The notes beneath the pieces are model-generated. The model was not told the origin of the DNA and ran no database searches. It was given only the letters and a program-made list of their open reading frames with translations. A stretch of DNA of 64,000 nucleotides from Datnioides undecimradiatus (taxonomy: Eukaryota > Chordata > Actinopteri > Lobotiformes > Datnioididae): assembly GCA_008933995.1 (NCBI GenBank), contig WARS01000013.1, forward strand, positions 18,293,806 through 18,357,805. Direction: 5' to 3'. Both the position numbers and the translations under genes were made by a program. This document shows positions 5,971 to 62,500 of the stretch, piece by piece (the stretch's first letter is position 1; the number at the start of each line of letters is the position of its first letter).

Positions 5971-8882
5971 TATAGACAAAACTGGTGTTACATGACTTAC
6001 TGATTTAAAAAAAAGGCTATATGAGTTGAGTCATGAAAGCCTTTTGATAATGGAGACAATAATTCAATTGATTTTACTAACCTTTGTGCCTGCTTCACAG
6101 ACCTGAGTAGGAAATGTAGCTCCTGGCATTTCAAGCAGCTCTTCAGTGCTGCTGGGACTGTGAGCTCTGATCGCTTCCTCTCAGACCTGCCGTTTGGTTG
6201 TAAAAAGAAGAATCCTTGAAATTCCTGACCTGATCACACAAACACACTCCTGGTACACAGGTTTAATGCATAAGAAACACAGATATCTCATTTCACTGTC
6301 CTTGTCACAATCTGCTCCTCAGCTCTTCTACCCATGCACACCCATGTAGACTTTACCTTCTTCCCTTATTGCCTGAGCAGACCCACCAATCCTCATTATC
6401 TAATCAACCTTCACTGCACATGAAAGACGATCTTCTTTGTTCTAAGTCAGATTGTTAAATATGGGCTCTGTGTGCTTCATGTTCCTGCTTCCTAAGCAGG
6501 ATTTTAGATTAATAAGTACATTTCAGGTTTGCCAAGTGTTTTCAGGGATTCAGTGGTGGTCCACTTCTTTCTAGGGTACACTGCCATGGTAATACACTTT
6601 ACCTGCTATGTTGTAGGCGGGGGAGGTGTGGGGAGGGGATGTCAATCAAAGTTGACAATGAAGTCTGTGCTTGAGTAGTACTTCCACTCATGGCACAAGT
6701 CGTTCCACTAACACAAATCTTTCCTGACTGTGAAAATGTCAGTGGATTGGTCATATGCTGCAAACACGACCACTTTAATATGAACGCACTCACTCATTTG
6801 GAAAGCCTGGGTTCACTCACTGAGTAAAACGTCCTGCCGTGTTTGAAGTTGTTGGGCTTAATGAAGACAGTAGGAGCATAATTCTTGGGTATGTTAATCT
6901 TACAGGCCGGAACCTGACTCTACCATACTGTTTTACCTGTTACCTATTTACTGGACTTTGGATTCATGCTTTCTTCTTTAGGATTGATTTGCTTGTGCTG
7001 CTGCTTTCTTGGTTTTACTCTGTTAGTTCCCTTGTTCTCTTGTTAGCTATGAAACATTTTAGAATAAATTCAACTTATGTACCGGAATAAACAGTTGTAT
7101 ACACAGTATTCAAAATAGATAATATAGAGAGTGATCTGCTTATATGCATTTAAATTACTATCTTATACTGTGGTGTATCTGTATGTTTTTTATTGCGTGA
7201 GTTTATTCATTATCTGATTTATTCCGTCTATCTGAAAGTGAAGAGGATTTAGCTGGCCACTGCCTTTGGCTCTATAACCAGGAGAAGTGCTTGAGAGTCT
7301 TAAGGCAGACAAATATAAGGTAGCGCAGCAGAAAGTCTTCTAGTTTAAGCCTTGAGTTGTTCAGGTTTCAAGTGGCGCATTTGTTAGTTGTGCTTTTGCT
7401 ATTGTTGAAAGCCTGTGTGAGCTTTGCTGACTGCCCATTAGATAAAGATGATACAAGTCGGGAACAATTGCAGTGCTGTGTGTTGCCGGGTGCTGGGCAT
7501 AAAGATTTTGATCAACAGCCAAAGATGGAGGTGTGCTTTACACCTGGACATTCATTATTGATACTTGAGTTTTGTAGAGGCTGTAAATGTGATTTATAAC
7601 CAAGGAACCGCACAAAAGCTGCCTAATGACCTTAAAGATTTGAATCTTTAAATCTCCCTCTCCCTCCCTTGAAGGTAATGCTTTCCAACACTACTATTTT
7701 CTCATTTGTAATTACGTGAGTTTAATCACAATTCAGTGTAAATTAAGAGGAATTACATGCAGAAAAATCCATTTACGGAACAGGTACCACGTTATGCAAA
7801 TGCATTTCCTACTCCTATGCTTGAACAATAATTTTTCAGGTTCTGCTCACAGCACTTTCTAACACAGTTCTGTGGCATCAACTCTGCCTGTAAGTTAGTA
7901 ATTCCCCACATTTTTGGCTCATGACTCAAACAGAGGTAAGACATTTTAGTTTTGTTTTTTTTTTTGCAAAGACAACAAGTCTTTCATTTGTGTTCTCCGA
8001 GGACTGCAGATATTTGGTTCCGACTGACAATGTTGCTGCAGTTTCATTGGTTCAAGAGGCCTGCAGTGTTAGTAATTGCTTGAAACCCTCTGTTATTCCT
8101 TCATTTTCCTGCAGTACTCCTTACTTAATACTGTATTTCATACATGAAATTAGGAGTTTACACAAGCAACGTGTGATTCAAACACAACAGCAAGTGTGCA
8201 GGAGTTTTCACTGTGACTCTCAGCAGGTGTTCAAAAACACTCACAACAGTTGCCAGCAGTGCTAACATTAGCATATTACGCTACCTAGGTTCCACATGGA
8301 AAGTGAAAAATACAAGATATGATCAAACCGTCCTGTGACTGTTCCTGCTCCAAACATAGCAAGTGTAACAAACCCAATAAAACTCTGTTAACGTCCATGG
8401 CATGTAAAATTCTGACATCCACGGCACAAAGTGGACAAAACAGGGAAGACAGCTCATGCAAGGTGGTGCACAGAATGTAAAGCAGCACAAAGCAACTACC
8501 AAGGATGCTGCAGAAGATGTCTGAAAATAAATAATTCTAACAGTGCCTTGAAAATGTGTGCCTTATACATCCACTCTCCACTATCGCCCTCTTCATGCCT
8601 TTTCTGCAGTATAAGAATGTAGAATTGAGTGGGTAAACATGTTGCATACATAATCGACACATTATTATATTGTAAACAACCGTTTAGCACTGTATGGATA
8701 TACCTAGAAGACACATTTTAACTAAACAATAATTATTTTTCTTAATTTACTTGAATATTTTGGGGTGGTCTGAGGAGGAAAAATAGAACAATTATTCAGT
8801 AATTTCAAAGAAAGAAAATTAAAAAGATAGGAAAATCTGAAAAAAACACACTTCCAGCAGAATTATGCTTTTTCTGCTGTAC
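5971..8882. other. Gene-free stretch
   Basis: No exon supported. A frame at 7357-7599 resembles a secreted cysteine-rich peptide (leucine-rich start, six or more cysteines) but begins at TTG, has no ATG before the hydrophobic part and no splice context, so it is not called. Confidence 0.45.
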
Positions 8883-8950
8883 AATCTTGTTCTTGGCGGT
8901 CCCTTGTGGGGGTCCTGACTCTTAGGTTGAGAGCCACCGCTCTATGAGTC
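8883..8950. repeat. End fragment of a fish MITE-like repeat
   Basis: TTGTGGGGGTCCTGACTCTT, AGGTTGAGAGCCACCGCTCT resembles the common repeat end GGGTTGAGAACCACTGCTCT seen throughout fish genomes. Only this end is recognisable. Confidence 0.35.
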
Positions 8951-24720: not shown

Positions 24721-24955
24721 CTCCTGTCTTCTGAAGTACAGTTCCATCTTACGTTTTCAGCACACTGTCAAAACCTTTTGAAAACCACATAAATATAAAT
24801 CAGCGCTGATTTTTACAACTGAACTCTTTGTGTGCTAAGATCAGGGGCAATGATGATATTGTTCTGACTCCCTCCTCCAAAGCACAATCCCATCTGATGT
24901 GCTCACAGCACTGTCAGAACATTTCTAAAATCACATAAATATAAATCAGCAGAGA
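24721..24955 (+). repeat. Diverged duplication of an ~88-bp unit
   Basis: Copy one (24721-24808) and copy two (24868-24955) share CTCC...CCATCT...CAGCACTGTCA.AAC and an exact ACATAAATATAAATCAGC. They are separated by about 60 bp. Identity is roughly three quarters by eye. Confidence 0.65.
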
Positions 24956-50757: not shown

Positions 50758-50804
50758 ATACACACACACACACACACACACATATAAATATATATATATA
50801 TATT
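50758..50804. repeat. (CA)n-(TA)n microsatellite
   Basis: A CA run of about 12 units followed by a TA run of about 10 units, ending 20 bp before the left TTAA of the palindromic element. Short TATAGG-type units precede it (50722-50760). Confidence 0.9.
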
Positions 50805-50828
50805 ATGGCATGCGGTTCAGGAAATTAA

Positions 50829-51160
50829 ACCTTTGAATATATTGAATGAAACTTTGAATATATGGAATGAATCCTGAATATATGGAATGAATCCTGAATA
50901 TATTGAATGAAACCTTGAATATATGGAATGAATCCTGAATATATTGAATGAAACCTTGAATATATTGAATGAATCCTGAATATATTGAATGAATCCTGAA
51001 TATATGGAATGAATCCTGAATATATTGAATGAATCCTGAATATATGGAATGAATCCTGAATATATTGAATGAAACTCTGAATATATTGAATGAAACTCTG
51101 AATATATGGAATGAAACCTTGAATATATTGGATGAAACCTTGAATATATGGAATGAAACT
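50829..51160 (+). repeat. Left minisatellite arm, 16 units of 20-21 bp
   Basis: Tandem array with unit TGAATATATKGAATGAATCC (20 bp; a 21-bp variant ends AAACCT). Sixteen GAATATAT cores can be counted between the element edge and TGACGTCA. Units vary at the T/G after GAATATAT and at the AATCC/AAACC end. The array is open over long stretches in some frames, which gives spurious ORFs rich in Phe, Ile and Tyr. Confidence 0.9.
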
Positions 51161-51164
51161 TGAC

Positions 51165-51202
51165 TGACGTCAGACTTCACGGCAGTGCCTGCGGCCATCT
51201 TG
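51165..51202 (+). promoter_or_regulatory. CRE-like and YY1-like motif pair, left arm
   Basis: TGACGTCA at 51165-51172 is the full palindromic CREB/ATF site. GCGGCCATCTTG at 51191-51202 is the reverse complement of a YY1-type CAAGATGGC core. The pair lies about 20-60 bp upstream of the ATG at 51223, where a core promoter would be expected. The same pair occurs in the opposite arm. Binding is inferred from motif match only. Confidence 0.5.
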
Positions 51203-51222
51203 TGCAACAGTGTGTAAATTGA

Positions 51223-51498
51223 ATGACAATGAGTCAGGCCGCCCGCAATCTCGTTGCGGCAATATTAACTAATGATAACATGATAAATACACTGGCGAAT
51301 GTCTTACAAAATCCTTCTGATCCTTCTGAAGAAGAAGTTCGCTCCATTTTTAACCATGGCAGGCCTACAGCAACAGGCCAGGCTGCTTATCGGGCCAACC
51401 TGAGCAACCGGCCAACCAAACTTCTCTGGGACTGGAGAAGTGCGGTGCCATTACGCACGGCCATTCACTGTGTTTTACCTTCATTAAATCACTTATAA
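51223..51498 (+). pseudogene. Short ORF in left arm of the palindromic element
   Basis: Unrecognised reading frame of 91 codons starting MTMSQAARNLVAAILTNDNM, followed by INTLANVLQNPS and EEVRS. The minus strand of the other arm starts MTMSQSAQNLVAGILNNEDI and INTLANACQNPP. Identity is clear over about 45 residues, so both derive from the N terminus of one parental protein. The frame sits 50-60 bp inside the CRE-like and YY1-like motifs. The carboxyl end after about residue 75 looks like non-homologous run-on. No function is assigned; probably a fragment. Confidence 0.5.
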
Positions 51499-51520
51499 AA
51501 CTATATATAACTATATATAC

Positions 51521-51802
51521 CTAGCTATTCTTACATCTTGTGTCTTGGACCCTTTCTTGTGTATGGGTGGAGATTGCACACAGGGGCTGTTTTAGGGCAC
51601 TCCTGAGAGATTGAAGGCATGCTGAGGTTGGCTTGATAAACAGCTGCCTGGTCTGCTGTAGTAGGCGAACTTCTTCGTCAGAAGAATGGTATTGGGCAGG
51701 GGTATCAGGAGGATTTTGGCACGCATTCGCCAGTGTGTTAATGATGTCCTCATTGTTTAATATTCCTGCTACGAGATTCTGAGCGGACTGACTCATTGTC
51801 AT
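51521..51802 (-). pseudogene. Short ORF in right arm, homologous to the left-arm ORF
   Basis: A 93-codon frame starting MTMSQSAQNLVAGILNNEDI. It contains a serine/acid segment (HSSDEEVR) absent or shortened in the left copy. Just after EEVR the DNA homology with the left arm continues, but in a different frame: left encodes QAAYRANLS, and the right DNA encodes a matching QAAVYQANLS only in another frame. One arm therefore carries an indel. Unknown protein. Confidence 0.45.
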
Positions 51803-51833
51803 TCACTTTTTGCTGCAGCATCCACACGTTACA

Positions 51834-51858
51834 CAAGATGGCCGCAGGTCTGACGTCA
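51834..51858 (-). promoter_or_regulatory. CRE-like and YY1-like motif pair, right arm
   Basis: CAAGATGGCCGC at 51834-51845 and TGACGTCA at 51851-51858 mirror the left-arm pair. They are upstream of the minus-strand ATG at 51802. Spacing between the two motifs is shorter than on the left, where about 13 extra bases lie between them. Confidence 0.5.
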
Positions 51859-51872
51859 GTCAAGTCCAATAT

Positions 51873-52127
51873 ATTCAAGGTTTCATTCAATATATTCAGG
51901 ATTCATTCAATATATTCAGAGTTTCATCCAATATATTCAGGATTCATTCAATATATTCAGAGTTTCATCCAATATATTCAGGATTCATTCAATATATTCA
52001 GAGTGTCATTCCATATATTCAGGATTCATTCAATATATTCAGGATTCATCCCATATATTCAGGATTCATTCAATATATTCAGAGTTTCATTCCATATATT
52101 CAGGATTCATTCCATATATTCAAAGGT
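51873..52127 (-). repeat. Right minisatellite arm, 13 units, inverted relative to the left arm
   Basis: The same ~20-bp unit as the left arm in opposite orientation (core ATATATTC). Thirteen cores can be counted. Part of it alternates two variants, GGATTCATTCAATATATTCA and GAGTTTCATCCAATATATTC, giving a higher-order dimer of about 41 bp not obvious in the left arm. Confidence 0.9.
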
Positions 52128-52131
52128 TTAA

Positions 52132-56575: not shown

Positions 56576-59500
56576 CTGAAACAAAAACCAGCAGAGAAAC
56601 TTGTGAACAACTAGAAATACCCTCCAATCAAAAGAAGAAAATCGGCACTCTGCTGTGCTATCCTCTAAATTTCTGACAAGTCATCATAAATCAAAAGCCA
56701 ACTGTGAATTTTTTCCATATCTACATTATTACTGGCTTTCAACAGGAGAGGCTATTTAAGTATCCTGAGAAGATAAAGTTCGTATCACATCAAAGAGGAG
56801 AGCGGCAAACTGAGCCGCCTCACAATTTTGCACAGCAGTGGGACGGGAGCACAGAACTGCTTTATATGCTGCAGAGCTGTGCAGCCAGTCAACAAGGAAT
56901 AATAACCCAATGGCAGAGATGGATGACACCGCGCACGCATTTCTAAAAAGGTCGCTTTTCTCGCACTCAAAATAAGTCTATTACACAGGGTTGGAAAGGG
57001 ATGCAATGAAGCCAAATTAAATGTTGTCTTTGAGTTATTGAATCCTCACTTAAGCTTTATACATGGTCAAAAAGAAAATGATTTTAGAAAAAAGAAGCAG
57101 TGAACTCACTTAATTTGTGGATGTGGATGGGTTCACTGCCCACACCTTCACCACCTTCACTCATGGCCTTGATCTGAATGAGATAGTTGTCATTGGTGGA
57201 GAGGCTGAGCTCCACGCTGGTTTTGTTGGTCAGTTTGGTGTTGATGTCATTGTAGCGATGTCTCTTCAGCAGCACCTGAGCCGGGAGAGGATGAAAATTA
57301 ACTAATGCAAAAAACGTCGTCCTTGATTCTGGAGATAAATCAAAGCTTTTTACGGGGATCTGGGACCCACCAAATATCCAGTGACCTTTGACTCCGTCTC
57401 CATGGCTACTACAGGATCCCAGTGCAGCGTGAGTGTGGAGCCAATCATGGTCCATTGTATGTTGAGTGGAGCCCGATCTGGAGCTGGAAAAAGAACCAGA
57501 GGTATACAACGGGATATGCTGCATACAGTTTTCTAAAGAAATGCATATATGTATATTATATGTATATATGTATAGTGTTATAAAACAATTTACTGTGAAA
57601 CTAATACTTTATACAGTAGCTCCACTTGGACAGATTTTTATATTTAAAACTCTCATCTTATCAGTCTGAATAATAAATTGAGTCTGCAGCAGAGCACCCT
57701 CACTAATTAAAACAGAGTGAATTCTAAGGTGGTCCTGAGAGCTCAAACACACTGCAACTCGGAAAACACATGCAAACGAACAAAACCAAAGAAAATGTGT
57801 GGCAAAGTGAACAAAGTATAGAAAACGAACCCAAAACCAAAATGTACAACCAGGTACAGAGATATCCTGTTAATACGCGCTGTTAGAAATGTAGAAATAT
57901 AGAAATGCGCTGCAGTAAATTATCATCAGACACAGAAACACAGTGGTTGCACATAACACAACAAAATGAGCTGAAGGACCAGTGTGCAGGATTCACTGGA
58001 ATCTAACAGTGAGATTTCAGATTTCCACCCAGTGAATGCCACTTTGCTTCAAGTCCGCTGGAGAACCCATGGCAGAAACTGGAAAAACTTGAAAGGCCGC
58101 CTGTAGAGCCAGTGCTTGGTCTGTCCCTCTGGGCTAATGTAGGAACATGACGGCGCAACATGGGAGGCTCTGCAAAAGCAGGTCACTCCTTCTGTCAATA
58201 CAATTGTCTCATTGTAATCGAATTTAAAATGATATACTAAAATGATATTTTTTCCCATATATTCTATACATGGGACAAGTGCAATGTCTCTGTGGCTTCA
58301 GACTCCAGCCATGAACTGCAACATCCATGTTTGTATCCAGATGGTGGCCCTTTGCATTACTGTCTCTCTTGTGTCCTGTCACCTCTCCACTATCACTTTC
58401 TGTTGAAGGTACAAAATCCCCCCCCTTCCCCACAGTTCACTTATGTTTGTTACTTCTAGCCTAACCATCGCCCTCTGGATATTAACATTTTTTTTTTTCT
58501 TAACAAAAACCTTAATGTTGTGGACTGGCAGTGTTTCTATATTTGCCTGTGTTTTTTGGTTTTGCTATGTTTTAGGGTATTTTTTTGTGTTTGCAACTTT
58601 TCTTAGAATGCTGCACATGTTATTTTCAAATTGGTCATTTTTCTTTATTTGCATGTGTTTTTTTTGTTTTTTTGGTTTACTTTTTTTTTTTTTTTGCATG
58701 GTGTTTAGCTAAAATTCTCAGTTTTTCCCCTAATAAATGTTTTTGGTCAACTACCGTATGGTGGCCCGACGCAAATCTCTGGCTACAGGAAATGAAAAAG
58801 AGATATGGTCAAAGGAAGCTGGACTCATGGTATCATGAAACATCAGCGCGCTACAGTTAGTTTTTCATTCAAAATGTGGAATGTCTGTTTGCTGGATTTC
58901 CTAAATGTCAAGACTCTTGCTTGCGCAGCAGTTGTCTGGTTTAGCTTAACATCACTTGTCCATATTAAATACCTAAATTGTCACTGCTGCTCTGTTCCAC
59001 TCAACCCACTGATTCATCTTCTCTTCCCTTTGCTTTCATTCTGAGGTAGATGGAAAGCCCTCTTGTCAGATTGAATTTTGTAAGCAAAACCAACAAAGCC
59101 GAAGAAATGCCATGCCTATCAGGTTGAGGACAGTGCAACATATCTGAAAAAAAAACATGGTTCATGAACGAGGACCATTTAGAAATGATTTCAATGCCCC
59201 TCTGGGACGCACTCACGTGGTTTCTTTGTGGTGGTGTTGATGGGCGCAGACTGTGGCCCGGGGCCAGCCGTATTGAAAGCAGCCACAGAGAGGTAGTACA
59301 CTGTGTTCGCTTTCAGCCCCGTGATGTTAACCAGCGTGTAGTTTCCAGATATGCGCACTTTGCCAACAGTGTCAGGCTTGGTGTCGTCTTCCCAGTACAC
59401 GACCTGTTGGGCGAAAAAATTAAAACAGTTTAAAAAGGCACAGTCTTGGGCAAACACAGACGGATTCTAGTGGTGCATTTCACTGCATTATTGAAATTCA

Positions 59501-62500
59501 TATTCCATCACGAAATCTGAAATGCTGTTTATATTACAGAAGGCGAGGGAGAGAGCGATGATGAATAATAAATTTTTCACTACTGAAGTCTCAATTACCG
59601 ATGCACATCCTCTCAACCACCCTGGCCACATAAACAGGGCATTAGTAGGTCATGTGATAACTGACCTAGAAAAAAAAAATCATTATTACTGCCTGTGTTG
59701 GTCATGAAAACAACCTCAGCTCCCGCTTTTGTCCAAGGAAATATTAAAAATGAGAGGGTCATGGATGAATCTTACAAATCGTTGAAAAGCTCTATATGTT
59801 CTCACACAGTTGAACAGCAAAGCAGGATTCTGTACTCTGATAAACAAGACGCAGAGTTTGCTTTCCTTCAGGCTATTAGCCTCCAATTAAGGGTGCAGGT
59901 GAAGAGATATTTGATAAAGCAAAGAGACTAATTTGCCGGCTCGCTCTGGTCATCAAAATTCATGTGTCTGGTATTAAGAGACATAAGAGTTAAGTCACTA
60001 AATAATTACACTGAAATGTGAAGTCTGCCCTTGGGAATAGTCCTGCAATAAATTGTTTCATTTCAAATTTGTTATCAATTAAAGCTGCGTATGATAAGCA
60101 CCAGAATTCAGTTTACAGTAATTTAATCTTTTGAGCAGTAATAATGATGATTACATTAAACCGAAACTGGATTGCATTTGCAATCGTAACAACATCTAAT
60201 TAAAGGCTGAGCTGCAATATACTGTATGTGCAGTCCACAGTCCCGGATCCATACTGTTGGTGGCCTATTGAGATTCAGCGGCTTAAATCCACTTCAGGAC
60301 CGCGTTTGGAGAAATAAGCTGCTCTGTTCTGAAAGGACAATGTGGCCACTGCTATGGCAACTGGAGAGCTTTGTGCTGAGGGCCAGAGGTGACAGATATT
60401 GAAAGAGCACCAGGGGAGAAAAGAAAAAACAGCAAAGCCCTCTTTGCATTCTTGAAAGGATGAGGGATTTTATTGTCCTCTTGTGGGTTTGCTGTTGGTG
60501 CACCAAAGTGCTGAGGTCAATGCATGATATTATTACTCTTTAAACTAAATCATTGCAGGGATACATGAGAAGATATACTAGAATATTATAAGTTAAAAAA
60601 AAGAGATGAAAAACTAAGTTTAAGAACAATGAAAGGACAGTTGTGAGCTGATGAGCAAGCCACAGGGAAAAGCTCAATTATGATGTTATTTGGGAAAAAG
60701 AAAAAGATGATTTTGCAGAGAGTCATAACATACCTCATACCCAAGCACTCTTTCAGGAATGGCAGGAAGAGCTTCCCAGATCACTTCAATTTGCACTGCA
60801 GACACACTTCTAGTCCTAACCCTCTTAGGAGCCACACTGGGGACTGCAGAAATAGAGCGCTGGTGAGAATCCCAGAGACTCATCCAACACCATCACACAC
60901 ACTAATAGCAATAAGAGGAAAGGCACAGAATAGACCTGTAGTTTCACTGAAAAGCTATTTCCCCAGTTCTCTTTTAATGGGATCTGTGACTGACATAAGG
61001 GAAGACTATCTGCCCAGCAAATTCAATTAACAGAATACCTCCCTGACAGTGCGGTGTGCTAAGTGTCTGCTAGGATTTCCTGTAATCTACCAGCATGATA
61101 ACTAATATCAAGTTGACATTCCCAGCTTGAGAGGGAGGGAAATAAATCATTTCATCATTACTATTCCAAGGTCATAGTTGTAAGGAGAGAGATTATAGCT
61201 TATTTAAGCGTCACTCTCTGCTACCGGGCTGTTGAGTCTGTACCCACCTTCCTCTGCAGAGTACACGGTGGCAATAGTGCTGAAGGGCCCCTCCCCTCTG
61301 TTGTTGTACGCCCCCACTTTCACATCAAAAGGTGAGAAGGGTGGGATGGTGTCATTGCGGAAGACGTAACGCGCCACACCAGGTGTGGAGATAACTGCCC
61401 GGGTCCACGTGACTGTGCCCACAGGCCTAAAGGCGATGATGTAGCCAAAGCCCTCTCCATTCTGCAGTTCCTCAGGAACAGGCTGGGAGCAAAACACAAA
61501 ACTATAGTGATATTAAAACGCATACAGACAAAGAAACAGACAGGCCCGTCTCTGCGCTGTACCTCGACAAGGGCTTCTGTGATTAGACACAGTCCCTTTC
61601 TTTGCGATTACTGCCCAGAACACTCCACAATCACCTTTTGCCTTATCTTTTCCTCCTGCATGACTATGTAATTGTGGCTAAAGTGCAAAACTCTTCAGAG
61701 GAAGTGCTCTCTGTCCCTGCTTTTGGAGGGAGAAATGGTACTTGGAAGCTGAGGCTGAGGAGAGGTTAGGGTTAATGCTCTAATGTGGGTCATAAAATTG
61801 CTCCGTTCAATTCTGCACAATTAAGCAAAACCATTACTCGGCCACGGAGAGAACAGTAAAATGTGACAGATGACTTACCTCCCAAGTTATCACTAATTCA
61901 GACTTTGTGCCGCCTCCACCTCCGACATCAGTGGGAGCTGTATCAGGAACTGAGAGGTAAAGCCCAGAGGGGAGCAATTAGAACACAGTTTACAAAGCTC
62001 GACAACAAGCCTACAACTACACTTGCAGCCTTATGACAAGGGTGCCCGCTGAAGATACTGTCGTCTGTTTTACACCCCACAAACTCCTCACTCCGTTCAA
62101 ACACAAATATTTAAGAGACTAGTGAATACTGATGCTGCCCAAATGTCACTGTGCATAAACACCAAGCAAAGATCTGTAGTATTTTGCAAATGACAATCGA
62201 CTCAACCCACTCCGTTCCTATTCCCACTCAGCTGTTTGTGCACTGCACTGTGATGCCAAAGCTGATAGCGGAGGTGGAGGAGTCCTCATAGTATCCTTTA
62301 GTAAGTGGAGCATCACATCTAATGTGACAGCAAATGGGTTTTTTTGCAGCATTTATGTCTGATGCCCATGTATGGCTGTCTATAGTGGCTGAACATTGGG
62401 AACTGAGATTGCAACACTTCGTGGGAATTCTTGCTTTAACGTGGCTGTGTATTCATTAATTGAAGACTAGACTATGCACTGAAAGAGAAATGCAATTCCA

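Follow-up and report, generated by a model that had tools for sequence, protein, structure and literature searches.

A probable fold-back transposon copy in Datnioides undecimradiatus with arms of two subfamilies, each carrying a leader and a HECT-type first exon

We describe an imperfect palindrome at positions 50806-52131 of a 64,000-nucleotide stretch of the Datnioides undecimradiatus genome (C315:18293806-18357805; hereafter the window, with all positions given relative to its first nucleotide). We are fairly confident that it is a copy of a low-copy, non-autonomous fold-back DNA transposon, that it is a composite of the 5' ends of a HECT-gene element belonging to two subfamilies, a and b, and that it is immobile at this site. 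An original prediction, made from the window sequence, had proposed a TTAA-flanked fold-back element consisting of two inverted copies of one end of a parent transposon; the inverted structure holds, while the nature of the ends and the origin of the arms turn out differently.

The element displays the layering of FB-like elements, namely an outer domain, tandem repeats and an inner domain arranged around a middle domain. The two ends match as predicted, with TTAAACCTTTGAATATAT found exactly at 50825-50842 on the plus strand and at 52114-52131 on the minus strand; with up to 3 mismatches allowed there are 3 matches in the window compared to 0.23 expected from shuffling, the third being located at 50846 with 3 mismatches. 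The left end is hosted by a (CA)n/(TA)n microsatellite (50758-50805), recognized from the sequence, in which the longest dinucleotide run within the outer 80 bp is 22 bp. The left terminal repeat proper, TGGCATGCGGTTCAGGAAATTAAACC, occupies 50806-50831 on the plus strand, differs from the family end by 1 mismatch and contains TTAA at 50825-50828. It is followed by a minisatellite of ~16 units of 20/21 bp (50834-51157, plus strand; Tandem Repeats Finder) and, in arm a, by the motifs TGACGTCA at 51165-51172 and GCGGCCATCTTG at 51191-51202 (both plus strand, from a motif scan of the arms), which we take to be CRE-like and YY1-like, respectively, the former being palindromic. An ATG reading frame of 91 aa extends over 51223-51498 on the plus strand. 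The middle domain (51400-51534), delineated by alignment and by partial matches to other loci, consists of the junction and part of the lineage-b intron 1; its portion 51421-51530 has partial matches of 91-96% in loci L013, L015, L017 and L020. Arm b follows on the minus strand with an ATG reading frame of 93 aa (51521-51802), exon 1 (51535-51796), the YY1-like motif (51834-51845), the CRE-like motif (51851-51858) and a minisatellite of ~12.6 units of 20/21 bp (51867-52122; Tandem Repeats Finder). The right end (52114-52131, minus strand) stops at TTAA and has lost the outermost 20 bp of its terminal repeat.

As originally described, the arms are inverted copies of both the minisatellite and an inner segment with a start codon; the inner segments 51216-51328 and 51697-51809 are 80% complementary, and there is one ATG frame in each arm. 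The proposed whole-element palindrome is real as an inverted structure, although imperfect, the two arms being 79% identical in the leader and exon part. The claim of a fold-back element whose arms each hold a leader and a coding part therefore stands. So does the suggestion that a transcript could fold into long dsRNA, given a predicted folding energy of -696 kcal/mol, about twice that of controls (-335 ± 24 for 19 window stretches and -329 ± 10 for 20 dinucleotide shuffles), and 433 of the 516 predicted pairs joining one arm to the other. A scan against Rfam gave no matches at gathering scores.

The coding part of the arms resembles the beginning of a HECT-type gene. Arm a is homologous to the first exon of this family from the MSQ at 51229 to ~51399 and unrelated to it beyond that point, and the exon-1 frame of arm b, which also begins with MSQ, is broken by a ~22-nt deletion. 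A search with the left frame yielded 4 relatives at E ≤ 1, and a profile built from the arms and those 4 relatives yielded 29 proteins at E ≤ 0.01, mostly short predictions from public contigs, one of them fish-named (Goodea atripinnis). Twelve longer relatives are all teleost-named. Of 10 relatives scanned, 5 score above the curated cut-off for the HECT domain (PF00632) and a sixth falls just short of it. Judging by this homology, the parent gene is a teleost HECT-type (G2E3-like) E3 ligase. Exon 1 of the right arm terminates in ...TRKGPRHKM followed by GTAAGAATAG; this is the end of exon 1 in the family, and the GTAAGA that comes next resembles a splice donor. Several relatives stop at the same place in GPRHKR- or GPRQKR-like residues, which is expected if AG|GTAA is read as AGG TAA. 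Neither the arm proteins nor HECT had a relative in scans of viral_contigs and genome_contigs, and a sequence search of PDB with P0001 gave nothing at E ≤ 1. A Pfam match of P0001 to LIFR_D2 (E 0.0055) was below the cut-off and was disregarded.

Upstream of exon 1, TGACGTCA is conserved exactly in 14 of 19 arms collected from the genome, and GCGGCCATCTTG exactly in 10 and with at most 2 mismatches in 17 of the 19. It is plausible that the leader has promoter activity. The same minisatellite and leader precede exon 1 in two proteins from public contigs, P0029 and P0030, whose sequences differ from the host arms. Both translate the minisatellite as MKLWIYW repeats, with W residues at positions that are TGA in the host genome; the two proteins were probably predicted under a code in which TGA means W.

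The inner segment has other copies in the genome, as the original prediction anticipated for a mobile element. The arm-a segment used as a query against the 581 Mb genome produced 18 rows at 13 loci including the window, and 6 of the 13 (window, L011, L013, L014, L015 and L016) are two-armed palindromes, while L010 is a 604-bp copy with a single leader and a terminal repeat at each end. The copies reside on different contigs and have common end points and unrelated flanks. Both terminal repeats are kept only in L010, L011 and L016; they are absent in L013 and L020, and L021 is rearranged. The centres vary through deletions, a long one being kept in L013 and L014 and a short one in L016. Such a pattern fits a single composite ancestor whose copies were trimmed separately, and equally a parent whose long inverted repeats had diverged. 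No autonomous copy was found among the element copies in the genome, and inspection by eye of open reading frames of at least 100 aa at seven loci revealed no transposase-like frame inside the element. About 0.5 kb beyond the element end in L019 there is an open frame (L019:629-1069, minus strand) that we take to resemble the end of a Tc1/mariner-type transposase. Some loci share repeats unrelated to the element, namely L012 and L019 (oriented, 8.4 kb; 4.4-4.7 and 9.4-9.8 kb) and L011 and L018 (~7 kb). A 19-mer match in a viral contig has no surrounding minisatellite and was taken as chance.

The arms fall into two subfamilies. The DNA tree of 19 arms separates 8 a arms from 11 b arms with support of 100/100 for the split; the bootstrap of this analysis had not quite converged, and three of the aligned rows are less than half occupied. 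On average, a arms are 94.7% identical to one another and b arms 91.5%, against 81.3% for a versus b (2 of 171 pairs with fewer than 60 shared columns excluded), and the a and b arms of the same copy are 76-85% identical. All six two-armed copies consist of one a arm and one b arm. In the protein tree, arm a groups with P0003, P0004 and the Collichthys and Neoarius first exons (92/92), and arm b groups with P0005, P0007, P0008, P0009 and P0018 (85/87). Uniting all 8 arms used in a single host clade is rejected (AU p = 0.032) in the tree of 22 of the 41 homologues (P0003-P0043) and 8 of the 19 arms. In the trees that contain 26 of the 41 homologues and only the two window arms, neither a clade of both arms (p 0.084) nor a clade of both arms with P0003, P0004, Collichthys and Neoarius (p 0.167) is rejected; rows that were short, odd-framed or longer HECT sequences did not enter the protein trees. 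The separation of the arms among their relatives is modest. Taken with the DNA tree and the identities, the protein tree leads us to reject the duplication of a single end, the origin originally suggested for the palindrome, and the arms were most likely already distinct lineages when they were joined. The reading frames of the two window arms give dN of 0.17-0.18 and dS of 0.38-0.51 (NG86), and 21 differences over 114 sites are distributed 4/5/12 among the three codon positions (binomial 0.02), a weak but suggestive indication of past coding constraint.

The main competing explanation is that the autonomous parent itself had long inverted repeats, each with a leader and exon 1, and that the palindromes are its internal-deletion derivatives. 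The constant pairing of one a arm with one b arm in all six two-armed copies is in keeping with this explanation, and so is the fact that the copies differ chiefly in how much of the centre was retained (long in L013 and L014, short in L016). In addition, the inner region of L012, L013, L014 and L019 is matched by the tail of the homologue P0007 over 17 residues (71-76%), and by the tail of P0009 over 7 residues only (E 0.10). On the other hand, no intact parent was seen, and the HECT protein P0032 starts at a single exon 1. We give this explanation a substantial chance of being correct, if somewhat short of even.

The search for the rest of the HECT gene bears on a further alternative. The HECT protein P0038 compared with the whole genome gave 9 rows among the best-scoring candidates, of which 4 are the exon-1 ends of element copies (window, L013, L015 and L017) and 5 are fragments of the HECT region, the best by E-value being 45% identical over 76 residues. 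Among these best-scoring candidates for the single query there is no intact gene of the G2E3-like HECT family, tblastn detected no HECT exon in the 12 other loci, and the window element itself contains exon-1 frames only and no C-terminal HECT domain. The full-length parent foreseen by the original prediction was not found in this genome; its gene is, by homology, identifiable in other teleosts. A fragment on C28 (G000:C28:1323804-1323938, locus L025) matches P0038 with 60% identity along 47 residues, contains 2 stops and may be what remains of the parent gene family. An inverted duplication of exon 1 of a host HECT gene that was subsequently spread by segmental duplication would account for the inner segment being the first exon of an annotated fish gene family. 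We nevertheless consider such an origin highly improbable, with copies that lie on different contigs, have unrelated 250-bp flanks and share common end points, and with no intact G2E3-like HECT gene appearing in the genome search.

The ends of the element are not where they first appeared to be. We compared 13 ends chosen for the presence of the motif TTAAACCTTTG or a near variant of it. In 12 of the 13 (11 ends of other copies and the left end in the window) the sequence TATGGCATGCCGTTCAGGAAA, with a few mismatches, extends outward beyond TTAA, so that the conserved end begins ~20 bases outside TTAA, which in the window places the left end at 50806. The right end in the window is the sole end of the 13 that stops at TTAA; unrelated DNA lies directly beyond it, and its outer 80 bp are free of dinucleotide runs. 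TTAA is therefore internal to a longer terminal repeat and is not a target-site duplication, as it had been read, since the same 20 bases precede it in 12 of 13 ends; nor does the element end at TTAA, given that the left end is further out and the right end is truncated. A fold-back MITE of the TTAA-targeting piggyBac or Kolobok type, which would explain why TTAA adjoins ACCTTTG at both window ends and why TTAAACCTTTG recurs in several other copies, accordingly has next to no chance of being right, TTAA being inside the terminal repeat in every compared end except the truncated one.

A genome scan for GGCATGCNGTTCAGGAAATTAAACC with at most 3 mismatches detected 18 sites, divided evenly between the strands (9 each); the reversed pattern, used as a control, has none. 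Two of these end sites, on C122 and C492, are 99.94% identical over 6.6 kb and are probably one locus assembled twice; the duplicated-looking stretches are L031:1-6622 and L032:501-7122. The 250-bp flanks of the 13 ends can be aligned only in their innermost part, up to 83 bp, which is made up of microsatellite and the 20 conserved bp. Of the 18 end sites, 16 (13 of 14 in a smaller set) have a dinucleotide run of 10 bp or more within the outer 80 bp, compared to 1.5% of 15,065 random stretches; the ends in L019 and L033 have no outer run of 10 bp. In L033 a (CA)n/(TA)n microsatellite at ~8501-8899 adjoins the minisatellite on its inner side, and consequently the microsatellites could be a part of the element or could have grown after insertion. 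We favour a target preference over repeats that the element brought along or seeded, because L010 and L016 carry the same type of repeat on both sides. Inspection by eye of the three copies that have both ends disclosed no consistent target-site duplication, and duplications would be unreadable there because the microsatellite flanks mask them.

The fold-back composite most likely arose as follows. Each long inverted repeat comprises a 26-bp terminal repeat, the minisatellite, a conserved leader with CRE/YY1-like motifs and HECT exon 1, and subfamilies a and b had most likely already differed when they were brought together head to head. The composite would then have been mobilized in trans, presumably by a cut-and-paste mechanism, by a transposase encoded elsewhere that probably recognizes the 26-bp terminus and perhaps also the minisatellite, whose units are probably repeated transposase-binding sites. 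Insertions would have occurred mostly into dinucleotide repeats, and separate copies would afterwards have lost different central or terminal parts. Because both arms face inward, their transcripts would be able to pair. With one end lost and arms that encode exon 1 only, the window copy should be immobile.

We also propose, tentatively and with rather more doubt than belief, that the teleost G2E3-like HECT genes belong, or once belonged, as the native gene to a DNA transposon not yet described, which inserts into dinucleotide microsatellites and has ends made of the minisatellite, promoter and first exon. By acting on host factors, the E3 ligase might aid the spread of the transposon, and the fold-back copies would be fossils of a full-length form lost from this genome.

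Tetris and other Drosophila fold-back elements are reported to have layered inverted repeats (outer flanking, tandem repeats, inner and a variable middle), to be non-autonomous and to occur as rearranged copies, with no transposase found, and the tandem repeats of other fold-back elements are discussed as being recognized by transposase (PMC4079207). The window element has in common with them the layering, the non-autonomy and the rearranged copies, and no transposase-like frame was seen inside it among those inspected. Unlike in Tetris, its inner domain is a leader and the first exon of a HECT E3 ligase, its arms come from different subfamilies, its flanks are mostly microsatellites, and no duplication of 8-10 bp is recognized in its family. 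The piggyBac and Kolobok MITEs bear a superficial likeness in having TTAA beside an inner terminal motif, unlike the present family, where TTAA is within the terminal repeat. Cryptons are not known to have terminal inverted repeats, whereas L010, L011 and L016 have them at both ends; the microsatellite flanks of the window element otherwise resemble the insertion sites of some CryptonV families. Insertion in microsatellites is reported for some of these families, and CryptonV is reported to encode a tyrosine recombinase (PMC8869645). The closest relatives of the coding part, the teleost G2E3-like HECT E3 ligases (P0032 from Collichthys lucidus and its relatives), share exon 1 and its end with the window arms; the window element holds exon 1 alone, in two decayed inverted copies and with no HECT domain.

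The present results correct a natural misreading of TTAA as the target site, provide a usable terminal signature for a mobile family in the 26-bp terminus TGGCATGCCGTTCAGGAAATTAAACC, and indicate that fold-back arms can stem from two diverged subfamilies instead of one duplicated end. They also link the G2E3-like HECT ligases of fish with mobile DNA. Such a link would agree with the unclassified repeat contigs reported from Cottus, which have blastx matches to proteins including G2E3 (PMC5638112). No HECT-encoding fish transposon is described in the titles or abstract openings among the matches listed, and "hect" is not mentioned in PMC4255032. If this terminus proves to bound the HECT genes of other fish, the idea of a ubiquitin ligase carried by a transposon can be tested directly.

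Two minus-strand frames to the right of the element, 61204-61512 and 57084-57608, match contactin fibronectin domains. The former has contactin-3 as its best match and a chicken CNTN3 fusion as its best solved relative; the best solved relative of the latter is KIAA1496, which we take to be contactin-3. Because these nearby frames match contactin fibronectin domains, the element lies within or just 3' of a contactin-3-like gene. Elsewhere in the window there is a 78-bp direct repeat (24727-24804 and 24873-24950), the copies of which are 77% identical and 146 bp apart from start to start.
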